Assembly (NCBI GenBank): GCA_020072565.1
Contig: JAIQGI010000004.1
Coordinates: forward strand, 124,001 to 188,000
Source of the DNA: Terriglobia bacterium
Lineage (GTDB): Bacteria > Acidobacteriota > UBA6911
Length of the DNA stretch: 64,000 nucleotides
Direction: 5' to 3'
Part shown: positions 6,720 through 42,187 of the stretch, piece after piece
How positions within the stretch are numbered: position 1 is the first letter of the stretch
Layout of the letters: every line of letters begins with the position of its first letter
Made by a program: the position numbers and the translations under genes
The notes under the pieces: generated by a model
Told to the model about the DNA's origin: nothing
Seen by the model: only the letters and a program-made list of their open reading frames with translations
Database searches by the model: none

Positions 6720-8104
6720 TCAGACTGCTTGGATTCCTTCCGGCGCCGCGCCCAATCTTCTTTGATAGTTTGCCTCGACCGCGCAATTCCCAGGGCTCCC
6801 GGGGGGACGTCCTCGGTGATGGAGCTTCCTGCTGCGATATACGCCCCACGTCCGATCCGCACGGGCGCGATCAGCTGCGAATCGGTGCCGACGAAGACCT
6901 CGTCTTCGATAATGGTAGCATGTTTGCGGACGCCGTCATAATTGCAGGTGATGACCCCGGCGCCTATGTTGACATTGCGACCGATCGTGGCATCTCCCAG
7001 ATATGCCAGGTGGGCCGCCTTGGTGCCGTTGCCCAGACTGCTCTTCTTGATCTCAACGAAATTGCCGACCCGGCATTTTTCGCCGATAACACTGTGTTGC
7101 CTCAGATGGGCGCATGGTCCCACCGTGGTTCCCTTGCCGACCTCGGAATCGGTGATGAGGCAGGACTCCAGGATTTCAACCTCCTGCCCTATTACGGAAT
7201 TGGTGATGCGCGTGCCCGAATGGATGATGCTGCCCTCGCCGATGCGGGTCGCCCCCTCCAGGGTCACCATCGGATGGACCGTGACATCTTTTTCGATCAC
7301 CACATCCAGATTGATGTAGGTATTGTCCGGATCGATCAGAGTAACGCCTGCGGCCATCAGGTTCTGATTTTTTTGCGCCTGCATCGCCTTCGCGAGCTCG
7401 GCCAGCTCCCTGCGCGTGTTGATCCCGCGCAACTCCTCGAAGTCGGAGTGCAAGAGCGCCTCGACCCGCAACCCGCTGCGCTGCTGAATCGCGACGACAT
7501 CCGTGAGGTAGTACTCCTTCTGGGCGTTGCGATTGGAAATCTTCTCGAGCGCTTCGAGCAGGGGCGGGATCTGAAAACAATAAAAGCCGGCATTGATCTC
7601 GGTGATCTTTCTCTGCTCTGGTGTGGCGTCCTTTTCTTCCACGATGGCTTCGATTCGTCCGTCAGAGGTGTGCAGGATGCGGCCATAAGAAAGAGGATCC
7701 TCGTTTGCAGCAGTCAGCAGGGTGGTGGCTGCGCCGCTGCTCCGGTGATGCTCGATAAGCCTACGGAGCGTTTCCGGTTTCAGGCGGGGCGTGTCGCCGG
7801 AGAGTATCAGGATATCCCCCCGTTTTTTCCCGATTTCCGGGCGCGCCATCATGATCGCATGCCCGGTGCCGAGCTGTTCCGGCTGGAGGATGAAACGCGC
7901 CGGCAGACCTTCGAGGCCTGCCTGCACCCGCTCGGCATCCTGGCCGATCACCACGAGAATCTCCTCGGGATCAACGCCGGCCGCTGCGCGGTAAATCAGG
8001 CGCAACATCGGGGTGCCACAAAGCGTATGCAGGACTTTGGCGCGGTTGCTGACCATGCGGGTTCCCTTGCCTGCGGCCATGATGAGAACGCACAGATCTT
8101 TCAT
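6716..8104 (-). CDS. glmU: Bifunctional UDP-GlcNAc pyrophosphorylase / GlcN-1-P acetyltransferase
   Basis: Carries out the last two steps of UDP-GlcNAc synthesis for peptidoglycan and LPS. The 462-residue protein has the N-terminal nucleotidyltransferase loop LIMAAGKGTRM (residues 8-18). A C-terminal left-handed beta-helix of hexapeptide repeats begins near 250 and contains the acetyltransferase segment VEIKKSSLGNG...AAHLAYLGDA. Full length for the family. Its start overlaps the yvcK stop (ATGA at 8101-8104) and its stop overlaps the downstream Cys-rich gene. Confidence 0.97.
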   Translation of the reverse strand: MKDLCVLIMAAGKGTRMVSNRAKVLHTLCGTPMLRLIYRAAAGVDPEEILVVIGQDAERVQAGLEGLPARFILQPEQLGTGHAIMMARPEIGKKRGDILILSGDTPRLKPETLRRLIEHHRSSGAATTLLTAANEDPLSYGRILHTSDGRIEAIVEEKDATPEQRKITEINAGFYCFQIPPLLEALEKISNRNAQKEYYLTDVVAIQQRSGLRVEALLHSDFEELRGINTRRELAELAKAMQAQKNQNLMAAGVTLIDPDNTYINLDVVIEKDVTVHPMVTLEGATRIGEGSIIHSGTRITNSVIGQEVEILESCLITDSEVGKGTTVGPCAHLRQHSVIGEKCRVGNFVEIKKSSLGNGTKAAHLAYLGDATIGRNVNIGAGVITCNYDGVRKHATIIEDEVFVGTDSQLIAPVRIGRGAYIAAGSSITEDVPPGALGIARSRQTIKEDWARRRKESKQSE

Positions 8105-9150
8105 GCTTTTGCTGAAACCTCCTCCTGTGTACTCGCCCTTGCTCTCTTCCAGCAGCAGTATGCCTGATAGACCGCCTCGGCCAGCCTGTCGGGGTCGTGA
8201 CGGACGGCCCTCCCGCGTGCCAGTAAGGGTTTCTCGAAAATCCTGAGCCCCAATGCCGTGATGCGTTCGCGGTCTGTCGCGACGGGCGCGGATCCCTGCC
8301 GGCGGTACCGAGCCAGCACCGTAGGAGATATCGGCTGATCATTCAGAATGATCCAGTCGAACAGTTTGCCCCCGGTATGATTGTAGATCGCCGCCACATG
8401 GTCGGCTGCGGAGAAACCGATTGTTTCCCCGGGCTGGCTCATGAGGTTGCAGATAAAGATCTTCATGGCCGGCGATCTCCTCAACGCGCGCGCGATCCCG
8501 GGCACCAATAGATTGGGAAGGAGGCTGGTGAAGAGTGAACCTGGCCCTAACGTGATCAGGTCCGCCTTCCGGATCGCCTGAAGCACTGCCGGCACGGGCT
8601 TGCAGTCCGGTGGTGAAAGCGACAGAGAGGTGATGCGTGCCCGGCTCCTGGATATGAGGCTCTCGCCGAAGAGCCGGCTGCCGTCTTCGAGAACCGCTTT
8701 GAGGCGCACATCCTGGAGAGTGGCCGGATAGATTTTTCCCTTGATCGCCAGAACGTCGGAGCTGACTCGAATCGCTTCCAGAAAATCGCCGGTTACCCCG
8801 GTCAGCGCCGAGAGGAAGAGGTTGCCGAAACTGTGCCCGTGCAGTTGGCCGGTGCCCGCGAATCGATATTGAAACAGATGCGACAGCAGCGACTCGTCCG
8901 TGCTGAGCGCTACCATGCAGTTGCGGATGTCACCGGGAGGGAGCACCTGCAACTCCTCCCTGAGACGCCCGGAACTTCCACCATCGTCGGTAACGGTGAC
9001 AACCGCGGTCAAGCGCGTGATCCAAGGCTTGCGAGCGGGTGGTTCGATTATGGGGGGGTCGGAAACCCGGTGCTTCATTCCCTTCAGGAGACAGGACAGC
9101 CCGGTTCCACCCCCGATGGAAACGACGCTATGCAGATCTTGAGATGTCAT
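8101..9150 (-). CDS. yvcK: YvcK/GlmR (CofD-like) gluconeogenesis factor
   Basis: Member of the UPF0052/CofD-like family. In Bacillus subtilis the homologue (YvcK, renamed GlmR) binds UDP-GlcNAc and adjusts carbon flow to the cell envelope. The motif VVSIGGGTGLS near residue 9 is the glycine-rich nucleotide-sugar loop, and TVTDDGGSSGRLR lies near residue 50. I placed the start at the ATG at 9150 because the upstream gene's TAG ends one base before it (TAG-C-ATG); a longer open frame upstream would overlap that gene. This gives 349 residues, a normal length. Overlaps glmU. Confidence 0.92.
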   Translation of the reverse strand: MTSQDLHSVVSIGGGTGLSCLLKGMKHRVSDPPIIEPPARKPWITRLTAVVTVTDDGGSSGRLREELQVLPPGDIRNCMVALSTDESLLSHLFQYRFAGTGQLHGHSFGNLFLSALTGVTGDFLEAIRVSSDVLAIKGKIYPATLQDVRLKAVLEDGSRLFGESLISRSRARITSLSLSPPDCKPVPAVLQAIRKADLITLGPGSLFTSLLPNLLVPGIARALRRSPAMKIFICNLMSQPGETIGFSAADHVAAIYNHTGGKLFDWIILNDQPISPTVLARYRRQGSAPVATDRERITALGLRIFEKPLLARGRAVRHDPDRLAEAVYQAYCCWKRARASTQEEVSAKA

Positions 9151-9151
9151 G

Positions 9152-9886
9152 CTATGGCTGACCGCCTGAGGCAGGCTGGCTCCAGCCGACGAGGTCGCTG
9201 AATTCCTTCTTGCCATGGAGCGGGGTGAAGTCCGAGTCGTTCTTGGCATACACCCGGTTTTCCTCGTTCAGTTCGACTGCTCTCTGAAGATTCCGGACGG
9301 CCTCGGTCACATCGCCCTTCATCGCAAAGGACGCCGCCAAGGAGTAGTAGATGTGGTCGATATTTGGATTTCGCTCCAGGGACTGACGGAAATAGGAGAT
9401 GGCTTTCTCGTAGTCTCCCCGGTTGTGTTCGATGACTCCCAGGTTGTAAAGCTGGTCGTTGGCGACCACGGCCTTCTTGTGCGCACCTTCCTCGCGGTCG
9501 CAAATCTGCAGGTACGTGCGTGCCCGCGCCAGGATTTCCGGCTCAGCTTGATAGCTCTCGATGAGGGATTTCAATTCGGCGCGAGCTCTTTTCAGGTCTT
9601 TGTGATAAATCAGCTTTATCGCCTTTTCGAGCAGACCCAATGCAGCCGTCGTGGCTTTGGTGTCGCGCAGGAGCCGGGATGTTTCCGCTATGTTGCTGAT
9701 GGTGCTCGTTTTCTTGGATTCCGAGGGCTTCGTTTTCCTGGACTTGGCCCGAGCAGCGGGTTTCGCGATTTTTGCAGGCCTTTTGCTTTTCGGCTTCACC
9801 GAGGATCTTGCATGCGCATGGGCCGGCTTCATCGATGCTGCTTTGGCACTACCTTTAGGCTTTTTGCTGCTGCGTTTGCTTGCCAT
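9152..9886 (-). CDS. TPR-repeat protein with lysine-rich N-terminus
   Basis: First gene of the yvcK-glmU operon; function unknown. I chose the ATG at 9886 (MASKRSSKKPKG) because AAGGGG lies five bases upstream; longer in-frame extensions exist but look non-coding. Residues 1-65 are a Lys/Ala/Pro/Ser tail (KPKS, RPAKIAKP, RKTKPSE) resembling histone H1-like or AlgP-like tails. Residues about 80-225 form helical TPR-type repeats, clearest at YNLGVIEHNRGDYEKAISYF and YSLAASFAMKGDVTEAVRNL. No signal peptide. The basic tail may bind nucleic acid or polyanions, which is inference. Confidence 0.75.
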   Translation of the reverse strand: MASKRSSKKPKGSAKAASMKPAHAHARSSVKPKSKRPAKIAKPAARAKSRKTKPSESKKTSTISNIAETSRLLRDTKATTAALGLLEKAIKLIYHKDLKRARAELKSLIESYQAEPEILARARTYLQICDREEGAHKKAVVANDQLYNLGVIEHNRGDYEKAISYFRQSLERNPNIDHIYYSLAASFAMKGDVTEAVRNLQRAVELNEENRVYAKNDSDFTPLHGKKEFSDLVGWSQPASGGQP

Positions 9887-10018
9887 TGACCCCTTGCCTG
9901 AACCGCTCGCTTCCATTTCCCCAGGGCTCCCACCACAGCGCCCTGCCAGAACATTCGCTAAGCGCTTTAGAATCAGCCATCTGTACGCGACAGAAAGCGA
10001 ATGCAAGAATTGTGAGTT

Positions 10019-10048
10019 ATTATTAGGAGAATTCGGTCGATAAGTCAA
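10019..10048 (-). promoter_or_regulatory. Candidate sigma70 promoter for TPR-yvcK-glmU operon
   Basis: On the minus strand TTGACT (complement of 10043-10048) is followed after 18 bases by AATAAT (complement of 10019-10024), five of six matches at each box. The implied transcript start, near 10012, gives a leader of about 125 bases before the TPR gene. Confidence 0.45.
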
Positions 10049-10184
10049 GGGTAAGGTCGGCGAGGCTTGACTCATCCCCTCTTCCCGGTCTTGCCATTCG
10101 TTGTGAGGGTGCGCCAATCGCACGTATATCGTTTTATAATTTAACAACTTACACCGACATATGCCTGCTGGATGCCAACCGTTG

Positions 10185-10703
10185 ATGAACCCGAGCAATA
10201 TCGTTCTCTACGAGGCTGAGTATTTGCGCCTCAAGTCGATTCTGGCGATGACACAGAGGGATCTTCGGGCGGACCTGGTGTTATTGATCGATCGCAGCGG
10301 CCAGCAGATCGCCTCGGAGGGGCCGGCCCACGGCATTGACATGACGGCACTGTCCTCTCTTGCAGCCGCAAATCTTGCGGCCACCGACGGCTTAGCACGT
10401 CTGGTAGGGGAACCCGAGTTTTCGATCCTCTTCCACCAGGGTAGACGACGCAGCATTCAAATCTCGGACGTGGCGAAGCGATTCTCTCTGGTGGTCGTAT
10501 TTGACGACAGCGTCTCGCTCGGCATGGTTCGACTCAGAGTAAAGCGGGCGACGGCCTATCTGGAGGAGATCCTGCGCGGTTTCCTGCGCAAGAGGGAGAG
10601 CGCCGGCTCCGCCTCCAAAGCGGCTCCGGGATCGGTGTCACCCTTCTACTTCACGGACGAGGACATTGACAAGCTTTTCAGCTTCCTTAAGCCCGGCAGC
10701 TGA
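10185..10703 (+). CDS. Roadblock/LC7-domain protein, MglB-like
   Basis: Probably a GTPase-activating or scaffold partner for the MglA-type GTPase encoded next. I use the ATG at 10185 (MNPSNIVLYE), giving 172 residues; an ATG at 10161 is possible. Residues about 10-125 fit the roadblock fold (LVLLIDRSGQQIASEG, then alternating helix and strand to LVVVFDDSVSLGMVRLRVKRA). The C-terminal 45 residues end FTDEDIDKLFSFLKPGS and may be a docking tail. A TATAAT lies at 10135-10140 without a clear -35. It is 24 bases from mglA; in Myxococcus MglB is the GAP of MglA. Confidence 0.82.
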   Translation: MNPSNIVLYEAEYLRLKSILAMTQRDLRADLVLLIDRSGQQIASEGPAHGIDMTALSSLAAANLAATDGLARLVGEPEFSILFHQGRRRSIQISDVAKRFSLVVVFDDSVSLGMVRLRVKRATAYLEEILRGFLRKRESAGSASKAAPGSVSPFYFTDEDIDKLFSFLKPGS

Positions 10704-38088: not shown

Positions 38089-38118
38089 CTCTAGTAGCGG
38101 CTATTGCGGTGGGATCCC

Positions 38119-39615
38119 ATGTTGAGTTTGAGGGAAGTGCAGCGCGCCGCCAGGGTGACGGCAGCGCGACTTTCGGGAGCCAGGTTGCAGCGCCTTGTGC
38201 AGGCTGACAATCATCAGCTCATCCTGGAGTTCTACCGTCAGGCGGCGACGCATCTTGTGCTCTTGTCGTGCCGGCCGCGGTTCGCGCGCATCAGCGGTCT
38301 CCGGGAGATACCCAAGGCTCCGCCGGTTCCGCCGGCTTTCGCCCAGTTCCTGCGCGCTCATTTCAGCGGCGCTACCTTTGAGCACACCACAACCTCTCCG
38401 CACGACAGGCGCGTTGGAATCCGCCTGGGCTCTCACACCGGCGGATTCGAGATCGTTCTTTCCATCCTTGGCGCCAGGAGCAACATCTATCTGCTTGATG
38501 CGGACGGTGTCCTTCTGTACGCAATGCGCCCGCTGGCTGAAACCCGGCGCGCGTTGGTTATCGGGCGGCCCTGGATCGATCCGGAAGGGGGTCCGAAATC
38601 CGAAGGCGCCGATCGGTGGGAGCACATTCCCGACGACAGCTATCTGGAGGCCATCGAAGAAACCTATGCCGGCTTGGAGAGGATCGAAGATGCGGAGGTG
38701 CTCGGACGCCGGCTGGAATACGTCCTCAACAAGGAGGCGGAGTTTCTCGAGCGCAAGGCGGTGAACCTGCTCCAGGACCTAGGGGAGGCAGTTCAGGCAG
38801 AGGGCTACCGGCACAAGGGCGAACTGCTGAAACTGGCGCTGCACTCGATCCGGCCTGGTGCCGACTCCGTGACGGTCACCGATTTCGAGAGTGGAAGCCA
38901 GGTGGCGATTTCCCTTGACCCCAGATTGACGCCGGCAGAGAACCTGGCTGTCTACTTCAAGCGCTATCAAAAGGAGATCCGTGGGGCCAAAGCGCTTCAG
39001 GAACAGCTGCAAGTCTTGAGGGGGGCACAGGAGCAACTTGCCGATTTCCGGCGCCGGCTAAGCAGGATACCTGGGCTGCCGGCACCCGATCCTGCGGCAC
39101 TTGAGGCTCTGGCTGCCGAGCCGCGCATACGCAAGCTGCTATCCCGCGCCTACCCCGACCGGAAGCGGAGCGCACCCCGGACGGCGACGATTGAGCCGGG
39201 CAGAAAAGAAATCCCTGGCCGACTGCGCCCGAAGCGATACCGGACAGAGCAGGGGCTGGAGATATGGGTCGGGCGCAGCGAAGAGGGGAACGATTATCTG
39301 ACCACGCGGCTGGCACGCGGCAACGATCTCTTTTTTCATCTGGAGGGCTATCCCGGCAGTCACGTGATCCTGCGGACCGGAGGGAAAGGCGATCCGCCTG
39401 CCGAATCAATGCTCGATGCCTGCGAACTGGCGGTTCACTTCTCGAAGCTGAAGGACGCACGCCAGGCCGATGTTCACGTCGCCCCGGTCAAGAATGTCAG
39501 GAAGCCTAAAGGGGCGAAGCCGGGATTGGTGTATGTCACAGGCGGAAAGACGATCCACCTCAGGCGCGACGCGAAGCGCCTGGAGAACATCCTGGCGGCC
39601 CGGCTTGACGAATGA
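38119..39615 (+). CDS. rqcH: NFACT/RqcH-family ribosome quality-control protein
   Basis: RqcH recruits Ala-tRNA to stalled 50S subunits and adds C-terminal alanine tails. From ATG 38119 (MLSLREVQRAARV) it has 498 residues; an upstream ATG at 38104 is possible. The order is NFACT-N, helix-hairpin-helix, coiled coil (around LGRRLEYVLNKEAEFLERKAV and NLAVYFKRYQKEIRGAK), then NFACT-R (LEIWVGRSEEGNDYLTTRLA, DLFFHLEGYPGSHVIL). An Asp-Arg pair at 96-97 (HDRR) matches the functional D97-R98 of B. subtilis RqcH. The domain set is complete. Confidence 0.88.
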   Translation: MLSLREVQRAARVTAARLSGARLQRLVQADNHQLILEFYRQAATHLVLLSCRPRFARISGLREIPKAPPVPPAFAQFLRAHFSGATFEHTTTSPHDRRVGIRLGSHTGGFEIVLSILGARSNIYLLDADGVLLYAMRPLAETRRALVIGRPWIDPEGGPKSEGADRWEHIPDDSYLEAIEETYAGLERIEDAEVLGRRLEYVLNKEAEFLERKAVNLLQDLGEAVQAEGYRHKGELLKLALHSIRPGADSVTVTDFESGSQVAISLDPRLTPAENLAVYFKRYQKEIRGAKALQEQLQVLRGAQEQLADFRRRLSRIPGLPAPDPAALEALAAEPRIRKLLSRAYPDRKRSAPRTATIEPGRKEIPGRLRPKRYRTEQGLEIWVGRSEEGNDYLTTRLARGNDLFFHLEGYPGSHVILRTGGKGDPPAESMLDACELAVHFSKLKDARQADVHVAPVKNVRKPKGAKPGLVYVTGGKTIHLRRDAKRLENILAARLDE

Positions 39616-39706: not shown

Positions 39707-39937
39707 CTAACTCACGTCCCGCGACTGGGGTTCGCCGCTTACGGCGGCACGCGGCTTCTTGGGGGCGTAAAGCTGGCATTCCAAGCCGGAGGCCTCGTAC
39801 ACCTGCAGTGAAGGACTCTTTTTAGATTTTAAGATGTGCGCCCGGCAGCCGTGAGGAAATTGGACATCCCAGGTAACGAGATAGTAGCGGCAATCGTGAC
39901 ATGCGACCGGCATGACTCGTGCGCAGGCTCGATTCAT
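39707..39937 (-). CDS. Small Cys-containing protein of unknown function
   Basis: A 76-residue protein, start uncertain (ATG 39937, ATG 39913 or TTG 39949). Characteristic CHDC followed by YYLVTWDVQFPHGCRAHILKSK and a Cys near the C-terminal third suggest a small metal-binding knuckle. I have seen similar short CxxC-TWD-PxGC proteins listed as hypothetical; no function is assigned. It follows the ATP-grasp gene on the same strand, about 120 bases downstream. Confidence 0.6.
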   Translation of the reverse strand: MNRACARVMPVACHDCRYYLVTWDVQFPHGCRAHILKSKKSPSLQVYEASGLECQLYAPKKPRAAVSGEPQSRDVS

Positions 39938-40057
39938 ATCGATGCTCAAAGCCCCTCAAACACTTATCGGGCATTCGCTCCCCCATGATTAGCGTATGCG
40001 GCAGCACAGGACGGTCCTCACGGGCCGGGGTTGGATTTCGGTTCAGATGCGGGTCAA

Positions 40058-41155
40058 TCAGTTGCCCCCGCGGGAGGGCTTCACGCGGCGCTTCTTCCTG
40101 CGCGCGAGTGCGAAGCCGACGATCTTGCCCAGGGTCTGGGAAAATGACATGCCGGCCCGTTCTGCGGATTCCATGAAGGAGACGCTTTCGGTGAGATCCG
40201 GGTTGGGATTGACTTCGAGCACACAGGGGGTGTCGGATTCGGTCAAGCGCATGTCGATCCGCGCGTAATCGCGGCAGAAGGTCGCCTGATAGGCCTGGAG
40301 CGCCTGTTCCCTCACTGTCTGCTCGACCTTCTTGGAAAGCTGAGCGGGACAGATGGCATGCACTTTGTGGTAGGCCTGATCCAGAGGATTCCATTTCACA
40401 TCGTAGGTGATAATGGCGGGATGGTCCTCCGGCAGGTCCGAAAAATCGAACTCAATGATCGGCAGCACCTGAGGCCGGTCATTGCCGAGGATTGCCACGT
40501 GCAGTTCTTTCCCCGGAATGAACTCTTCGATCAGCACGGGCGGATCGAACGACTCAAAAACAAGGTTGACACGGCTGACGAGCTGTCCGTAATCATATAC
40601 CACCGATCCAGCCTCGACCCCCAGGCTGGCATCCTCTTGCGCCGGTTTGACGATCAACGGGTATAGGAGACCATGCGCGCGCGGAACCTTGGGTGTGCGC
40701 AGGAGCCGATAGCCTGGTGTTGCGATCCCCTGCTTCATGAGGACTTGCTTTGTAATCGACTTGCGTTGGCAGAGATCGAGTGCAAAGGGCGCCGAGCCGG
40801 TGTACGGGATCTGGTAGAGGTCGAAAAGCGCGGCGATGGCCGACTCGAGCTGGGGATCGCTGTGGAACATCTCGACGAGATTGAAAATCACGTCGGGCGA
40901 GGTGTGGGCAAAGAGCCGCTGGAGTCGGGTGAGATCGTCTTCGATGTTGAGCAGAGTTACATGATAACCTTCTGTTTTTAGGGCGTTGACTATGGCATGG
41001 TATTCTTCCTGGACCGTCGCTACCTGGAGCGGGTATACGGGCGTGAAATCGAGAGTGGAGGGATCGATATCGCGCAGCTGCTCGTAATGGTCAACGCCGG
41101 TGTTGTTGTAAATGACGGCTACTGACGCCTGTTTGCTTTTGGAACGTCGGGTCAT
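40058..41155 (-). CDS. ATP-grasp ligase, D-Ala-D-Ala ligase-like
   Basis: Probable peptide- or amide-forming ATP-grasp enzyme. I start at ATG 41155 (MTRRSKSKQASVAVIYNN), giving 365 residues. Segments typical of the D-Ala-D-Ala ligase group are visible: DVIFNLVEMF, DLYQIPYTGSAPFALDLCQRK, PLIVKPAQEDASLGVE, LIEEFIPGKELHVAILG and the Mg-binding VLEVNPNPDLTE. The N-terminus and substrate loop differ from Ddl, and no mur genes are near, so it is unlikely to be the housekeeping Ddl. It is divergent from a C39-like peptidase gene, 156 bases apart. Confidence 0.82.
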   Translation of the reverse strand: MTRRSKSKQASVAVIYNNTGVDHYEQLRDIDPSTLDFTPVYPLQVATVQEEYHAIVNALKTEGYHVTLLNIEDDLTRLQRLFAHTSPDVIFNLVEMFHSDPQLESAIAALFDLYQIPYTGSAPFALDLCQRKSITKQVLMKQGIATPGYRLLRTPKVPRAHGLLYPLIVKPAQEDASLGVEAGSVVYDYGQLVSRVNLVFESFDPPVLIEEFIPGKELHVAILGNDRPQVLPIIEFDFSDLPEDHPAIITYDVKWNPLDQAYHKVHAICPAQLSKKVEQTVREQALQAYQATFCRDYARIDMRLTESDTPCVLEVNPNPDLTESVSFMESAERAGMSFSQTLGKIVGFALARRKKRRVKPSRGGN

Positions 41156-41311
41156 GAGAACATCAGCTCGGATTCCGGATGCGGGGCGTATCGCTGTATG
41201 CCCCGAAGGTTTTTTCGACGACAGGGTAGACGTACCTGCTATGCCTCGCGCATCGATTAAAGCAGAATTCTGCATTTTTGGGAAGGTTGGAAACCAATTA
41301 GGAGCCGATTC

Positions 41312-42187
41312 ATGGGATTTTCTCCGCAAACCAATCGCTGGCAGTGCGGGCCATTCGCACTGAAGCACGCTCTGATCATGCTGGGCATTCTTGCCGACGA
41401 AAGCGCCATCTCGAAGCTGTCGGGAGCGAACAGGCTCTCAGGCACGAACGAATTCCAACTGGCGCGGGCGGCGCGCAAGTTCGACTGCGATCTCCTGCTC
41501 GAGCGCAGCGAGGACTCAGGCGAGGCGCGGCGGGACCTGGTCGAGCACTTGCGCCTTGGCCTCCCCTGCCTGGTATGCATCAACGAGTGGAGTCATTGGG
41601 TGACGATTGTGAAGGAGGAGAAGGGCCGCTTTATCGTGCTCGACAGCCGTGACGTGGCGGTGCTGGTGATTCTCACCTGGAAGCAGCTTGAGAGCCGCTG
41701 GGTCTATCACCAGGAGGAGAAGGGCGAGGCAAAGACGCTGTATGACTTTCATCCCGTCATCCCTTTGTTCCGCACCCAGACGCGCGCTCGTGTGTCGCTG
41801 GCGCGCGCCCGGTTTTTGCGCCGACCCGAAAACAGGGATTTTGCCCGCCAGTGGGACAAGTACGTCGAAGACCTGCTGGCAATCTGCCGGGCCCGTACTC
41901 CCTTAAGCTCGAATATCCTTTCCCTCGGCGAGTTTCTCCGTCGCTATGGGGAGATGGTGCTGGACCAGGTGGCCTTCTGGCACGGATGGATCGAGCGCCG
42001 TCGGGCGGCGAAGGTGCTTGCGAACCTGCACTTTGTCGCAGACACCTATGGACTGGTCATTCACGAGGAAGATGAAAAGCGGGCGCTCGCGGGCATTACC
42101 TCACTCCTTACGCTCTGGGCTGGAGGGAGATACGGCGTGACCCCGGTCTATCCGGAGTCGCCGAGGAAGTCCCGCGCGAAAAACTGA
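41312..42187 (+). CDS. C39-like papain-fold cysteine peptidase
   Basis: 291 residues with a peptidase C39-like domain in the first 120. The predicted catalytic set is Gln11 and Cys12 (RWQCGPFALKHAL), His95 (EWSHWVTIV) and Asp111 (IVLDSRD). The remaining 170 residues are mostly helical and basic and resemble nothing I know. There is no signal peptide or transmembrane domain, unlike bacteriocin-exporting C39 ABC transporters, so it is probably cytoplasmic. AGGAG precedes the ATG. Divergent pairing with the ATP-grasp ligase suggests a joint job in making, trimming or removing a peptide tag. Confidence 0.75.
   Translation: MGFSPQTNRWQCGPFALKHALIMLGILADESAISKLSGANRLSGTNEFQLARAARKFDCDLLLERSEDSGEARRDLVEHLRLGLPCLVCINEWSHWVTIVKEEKGRFIVLDSRDVAVLVILTWKQLESRWVYHQEEKGEAKTLYDFHPVIPLFRTQTRARVSLARARFLRRPENRDFARQWDKYVEDLLAICRARTPLSSNILSLGEFLRRYGEMVLDQVAFWHGWIERRRAAKVLANLHFVADTYGLVIHEEDEKRALAGITSLLTLWAGGRYGVTPVYPESPRKSRAKN

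Follow-up and report, generated by a model that had tools for sequence, protein, structure and literature searches.

What does a D-Ala-D-Ala-ligase-like enzyme do when it is encoded away from the cell-wall genes and back to back with a soluble papain-fold protein? The question is posed by two genes within a 64,000-nucleotide stretch of an Acidobacteriota genome (a Terriglobia bacterium, contig JAIQGI010000004.1; hereafter the window), for which an earlier note had suggested that the two proteins build and trim a peptide or a protein tag. Both members of the divergent pair that it described are present, here called LIG and PEP (Table 1), and no mur genes adjoin them, so the ligase does lie outside a mur context, as the note had it. 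The minus-strand frame of LIG stays open as far as a GTG at 41368, and a start there would overlap PEP. Since the nearest relative, a 71% identical protein from the sister genome, begins at the aligned MTRR, LIG is assigned the interval given in the table; it probably starts at the ATG at 41155, with 156 bp separating the start codons of the two genes.

Table 1. Features of the LIG/PEP locus, in positions of the window
Feature	Coordinates	Strand	Basis
LIG, Ddl-like ATP-grasp ligase, 365 aa	40058..41155	-	probable ATG start at 41155; Pfam Dala_Dala_lig_C 1.3e-34, AF2/Foldseek
Divergent intergenic region, 156 bp	41156..41311		sequence; putative shared promoter region
PEP, C39-like cysteine peptidase (predicted) with helical C-terminal region, 291 aa	41312..42187	+	C39 matches in homologues, AF2/Foldseek
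Codon of PEP Q6, probable oxyanion Gln	41327..41329	+	invariant 24/24; pairs with PeiR Q84
Codon of PEP C12, predicted catalytic Cys	41345..41347	+	invariant 24/24; pairs with PeiR Cys90
Codon of PEP H95, predicted catalytic His	41594..41596	+	invariant 24/24
Codon of PEP D111, predicted third triad member	41642..41644	+	invariant 24/24
PEP C-terminal region, residues ~155-291, mostly helical, of no known family	41774..42184	+	AF2 secondary structure, alignment

LIG shares with the Ddl enzymes (E. coli DdlB, the VanA family) the ATP-grasp fold and the residues that handle ATP and Mg, but differs from them in its D-Ala pocket, in scores below the family cut-offs, in forming a separate clade and in the absence of a mur operon. 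The AF2 model (pLDDT 84) finds Ddl proteins as its top Foldseek matches (E 5e-24), and the RimK model reaches LIG only at E 0.022, under the cut-off. Against the NCBIfam Ddl models, LIG scores 154.6 and 144.4 bits where 243 and 245.65 are required. Aligned to E. coli DdlB, it retains every one of the residues that we take to be ATP/Mg ligands (K97, K144, E180, E187, K215, R255, D257, E270 and N272). At the four positions that presumably form the D-Ala side, S150, Y216, G276 and S281, the window protein has A, W, D and V; all four are changed there and in each of the seven further LIGs of the alignment, with S150 going to A, Y216 to W, G276 to D and S281 to V or A, and one LIG linked to an amidase has G rather than A at the S150 position. 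Because the catalytic residues of Ddl are retained, LIG should still activate a carboxylate and ligate it, forming an amide via an acyl phosphate; because the acceptor pocket has been replaced, its substrates, judging from the sequence, are not D-Ala.

Phylogeny agrees with the suggestion that this ligase is distinct from housekeeping Ddl. A tree of 91 ligase sequences, obtained by a quick search and containing some long branches, was used for its well supported parts alone. It groups the ligases linked to PEP in a single clade with full support, and the housekeeping Ddl sequences of these genomes lie outside it; a normal Ddl is encoded elsewhere in genomes that carry LIG. Ligases of this type resemble Ddl closely enough to be misidentified as D-alanine-D-alanine ligase. 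A Ddl homologue that works outside the wall is already on record in MysD, which attaches amino acids to a small molecule in mycosporine-like amino acid synthesis (PMC11983340). Like LIG it is a Ddl homologue, but it differs in substrate class and gene context, and the part of that source drawn on here describes no peptidase partner (PMC11983340).

The second protein is identified mainly through its relatives and its predicted structure. Window PEP passed no model in Pfam or NCBIfam; 15 of 24 close homologues match Peptidase_C39 (PF03412) at E values up to 1 (best 6e-8), with one, L105, reaching 25.0 bits against a cut-off of 22. The AF2 model of PEP (pLDDT 82) leads Foldseek to the peptidase domains of ComA and PCAT1 and to the endoisopeptidase PeiR, and the C39 fold is matched at E 9e-6 with a TM-score of 0.69-0.74 on the target. 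PEP has the same fold and the same Gln-Cys-His-Asp set as these enzymes; in contrast to the C39 domains of ComA and PCAT1, it is soluble, is not fused to an ABC transporter (the protein has neither a transporter domain nor a membrane segment) and adds its own helical C-terminal region. Many of the homologues end in a basic tail with a run of Lys and Arg, such as KRKRR (alignment A4).

The catalytic set had been read as Gln11-Cys12-His95-Asp111. The last three residues stand, invariant throughout the homologues, but Q11, though present in 23 of the 24, is not at the canonical oxyanion position, a place held by the invariant Q6, six residues ahead of the Cys. In an HMM alignment Q6 falls on Q84 of PeiR and C12 on Cys90, which is mutated in 8z4n; since Q84 likewise precedes Cys90 by six, the oxyanion residue is Q6 rather than Q11. 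From these residues, PEP should be a Cys-His-Asp amide hydrolase. A hydropathy scan detected no export signal in either LIG or PEP, as had been claimed, and with neither protein carrying one, the accompanying proposal that the pair and its substrate are cytoplasmic is plausible.

The earlier note had also expected the two genes to be conserved together, and this holds over several phyla. Among 60 relatives searched, PEP occurs in four, all of the window's own family, with LIG adjoining in each; counting the window genome, all five PEP genomes of the family have the pair, and its flanks are of at least three kinds. When GTDB was scanned with the PEP alignment, 25 loci were returned, 23 of them with a full PEP, from Acidobacteriota, Ignavibacteria/Bacteroidota, Gemmatimonadota and Planctomycetota. 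An intact LIG adjoins 15 of the 23, seven have none, and in one (L020) LIG is missing its middle. At this last locus the LIG fragments (1437-1951) lie next to an intact PEP and the ATP-grasp middle, about residues 111-215, is gone, as in a decayed ligase. At L040, the Planctomycetota locus, LIG and PEP are co-directional, LIG first, rather than divergent, so the pairing has outlived a rearrangement.

Among 197 genomes sampled from a single class, with counts transcribed by hand from the search tables, full-length LIG-like matches occur in 54 and PEP in 61, with both in 50. Three apparent LIG-only genomes were rejected as such: in G298 and G369 the gene sits in the clade of AGB, a related ligase described below, and in G378 it adjoins AGA and was counted as AGB. 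After this correction both genes are found in 50 genomes, LIG only in one, PEP only in 11 and neither in 135, so that 50 of 51 genomes with LIG also have PEP; in the exception, G363, PEP is absent from an otherwise similar spot. Fisher's exact test on these counts, which ignores shared ancestry, gives 1e-34, and 2e-25 within AGA-bearing genomes. Most of the sample consists of metagenome assemblies, and some absences may therefore be assembly gaps. Directly divergent pairs account for 35 of the 63 PEP genes in the class, every adjacent pair being divergent, with gaps of 82-301 bp as measured on match coordinates; the other 28 have no directly adjacent LIG, and about a dozen genomes keep both genes though they are non-adjacent in the assembly. 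The coupling is not strict, since 11 of 61 PEP genomes in the class lack LIG and the LIG of L020 is broken. That said, the pair is kept across at least four bacterial phyla, and for this reason LIG and PEP very probably act on one and the same molecule.

A clue to that molecule may lie in a second cluster, which nearly all pair-bearing genomes carry away from the pair and which comprises two tandem ATP-grasp ligases (AGA and AGB), a GNAT and a KamA-family radical SAM enzyme. The best model for this last enzyme is lysine 2,3-aminomutase, at 469 bits against a cut-off of 525. LIG is close to one of the cluster ligases, AGB, which has the same changed acceptor pocket; AGA retains S150, G276 and S281 of Ddl. 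AGA is present in 135 genomes of the class sample, and 133 of these have a KamA-type gene; it is found in 58 of 61 PEP genomes versus 77 of 136 without PEP, figures that carry no correction for ancestry. All 14 of the PEP-locus genomes that were searched whole hold additional ligases of the AGA/AGB kind. Since AGA is present in 10 of the 11 PEP-only genomes, PEP can have a substrate from these sister ligases. Most simply, LIG and PEP would act on a product of the cluster's pathway, a link that we infer, as the pair is not adjacent to the cluster and joint absence from some lineages could yield part of the association. The window's own genome has the cluster in L012 (G000:C14:70000-89900), at about 6768-10316, and Ignavibacteria and Gemmatimonadota have it too; its neighbours in several genomes are a RecG-like gene and a peptidase of M24 type, families that were named by eye.

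From the genes, their catalytic residues and their co-conservation, which are observed, we infer the directions of the reactions and the substrate. Our preferred reading, a tentative one to which we give slightly less than an even chance, is a cytoplasmic module for the synthesis and hydrolysis of an amino acid conjugate with an amide link, a product of the aminomutase-cluster pathway that LIG would make and PEP would cut. LIG would use ATP to turn a carboxylate into an acyl phosphate and then couple an amine, and PEP would cleave the product of LIG or a closely related product of a sister ligase. The linked substrate would most likely be a small amino acid conjugate produced by the tandem ATP-grasp/GNAT/lysine-2,3-aminomutase-like pathway, for example a beta-amino-acid peptide, and the pair would set its level or length, much as the two halves of glutathionylspermidine synthetase/amidase (GspSA) do. 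In GspSA an ATP-grasp-type synthetase is countered by a papain-fold amidase that works in the opposite direction; GspSA differs from LIG/PEP in being a single fused protein, with a CHAP-type amidase and a ligase of another ATP-grasp branch. The initial idea of making and trimming is thus partly supported, by the co-conservation and by a ligase that groups apart from housekeeping Ddl and lacks its acceptor pocket, but it loses Q11 and the Cys protein proposed as substrate (see below).

Systems of an amidoligase and a peptidase are a type already known, and the present pair is a real and conserved one. Iyer et al. in 2009 reportedly described gene neighbourhoods with amidoligases beside peptidases and amino-acid-modifying enzymes, the same general theme. 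In the literature searched we found no description of this LIG branch, of PEP, of their link to the aminomutase cluster or of the ATP-grasp/aminomutase system itself, and the 2009 survey could already list the pair. A non-wall ligase branch with a dedicated cysteine peptidase would mark, in four or more phyla, an uncharacterised pathway for a peptide or amide, and the pair plus the aminomutase cluster offers a concrete enzyme set with a product class to seek, a beta-amino-acid conjugate. A more specific and more doubtful version would have LIG, PEP and AGA-AGB-GNAT-aminomutase form one undescribed pathway in Ignavibacteria, Acidobacteriota and Gemmatimonadota, making a beta-amino-acid conjugate (a cytoplasmic peptide cofactor, solute or protein tag) and reversibly attaching and removing it.

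The main rival to the hydrolase reading makes PEP a papain-fold amide synthase or acyltransferase of the sort represented by CtaG, BtrH and phytochelatin synthase; LIG and PEP would then produce one metabolite in two steps. The papain fold does cover such enzymes, BtrH among them (PMC10318531), and PEP might not hydrolyse at all, since Foldseek also matches it to the papain-like amide synthases CtaG and AziU3/U2. In addition, BtrH_N is weakly matched by 5 of 24 PEP homologues, and PEP exists in places without LIG. These synthases, however, rank beneath the C39 peptidases with low TM-scores of about 0.3, and the top and most abundant matches in both fold and sequence are true peptidases (C39, PeiR), which leaves a synthase unlikely.

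Writing and erasing on a protein is another way to employ such a pair: LIG would attach an amino acid or beta-amino acid at the end of a protein or on one of its side chains, and PEP would take it off again. RimK and RimB act in this manner on the polyglutamate of RpsF, and TTL and vasohibin on tubulin tyrosine. RimK/RimB couples an ATP-grasp ligase to a protease devoted to undoing its additions (PMC11957791), and PEP for its part resembles an endoisopeptidase. RimK/RimB differs from LIG/PEP, however, in its ligase branch, its aspartic protease and its ribosomal protein target, and LIG belongs to the small-molecule Ddl branch, not to that of RimK or TTL. A protein tag is also made less likely by the absence of a conserved small protein beside the pair, and overall we judge this alternative quite unlikely. 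The nearby Cys-rich protein that had been put forward as a conserved substrate, an 80-aa ORF at 39707-39949, was rejected in that role, as its 57% identical counterpart at the same place is confined to the sister genome. A search of 22 loci for a conserved small substrate protein found none, the other recurrent small ORFs near the pair overlapping LIG or PEP on the opposite strand. The NFACT/RqcH-like gene next to LIG (38104-39615) was likewise dropped as a functional partner, since it stays beside the pair in the sister genome alone. PADLOC defence models gave zero matches, and a reading as an anti-phage defence system was rejected.

To return to the proposed conjugate module, its substrate could instead be a wall peptide, which LIG would rebuild or alter and PEP, or an Amidase_2 protein of genus g3, would release in muropeptide tailoring or recycling. 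LIG is after all a Ddl relative and PEP resembles a pseudomurein endoisopeptidase, and in four g3 genomes LIG, without PEP, stands in line with an exported Amidase_2 gene directly upstream. But LIG has lost the Ddl acceptor pocket, a normal Ddl is present elsewhere, the pair has no adjoining mur genes, and Amidase_2 is a separate gene, apart from LIG, in the window's genome (G000), G001, G013 and others; we consider wall metabolism improbable. A swap of PEP for Amidase_2 in g3 was rejected on this last ground, and the g3 LIG-Amidase_2 association is recorded as a local arrangement. The four g3 genomes do count against a strict two-part LIG/PEP module. At L082:4408-5727 and L080:6876-8600, both without PEP, the Amidase_2 directly upstream of LIG has a Tat-like N-terminus.

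Adjacency without common function, through a shared divergent promoter or because neighbouring genes can stay linked by descent, would suit the 28 class PEP genes that lack an adjacent LIG, but is very improbable given a pair found in several phyla with varied flanks and two relative orientations, and kept by the dozen or so genomes in which the genes are apart.

In one Ignavibacteria group, an isochorismatase-family hydrolase gene often lies 3' of PEP (L102:3544-4053 and similar loci among L098-L114).
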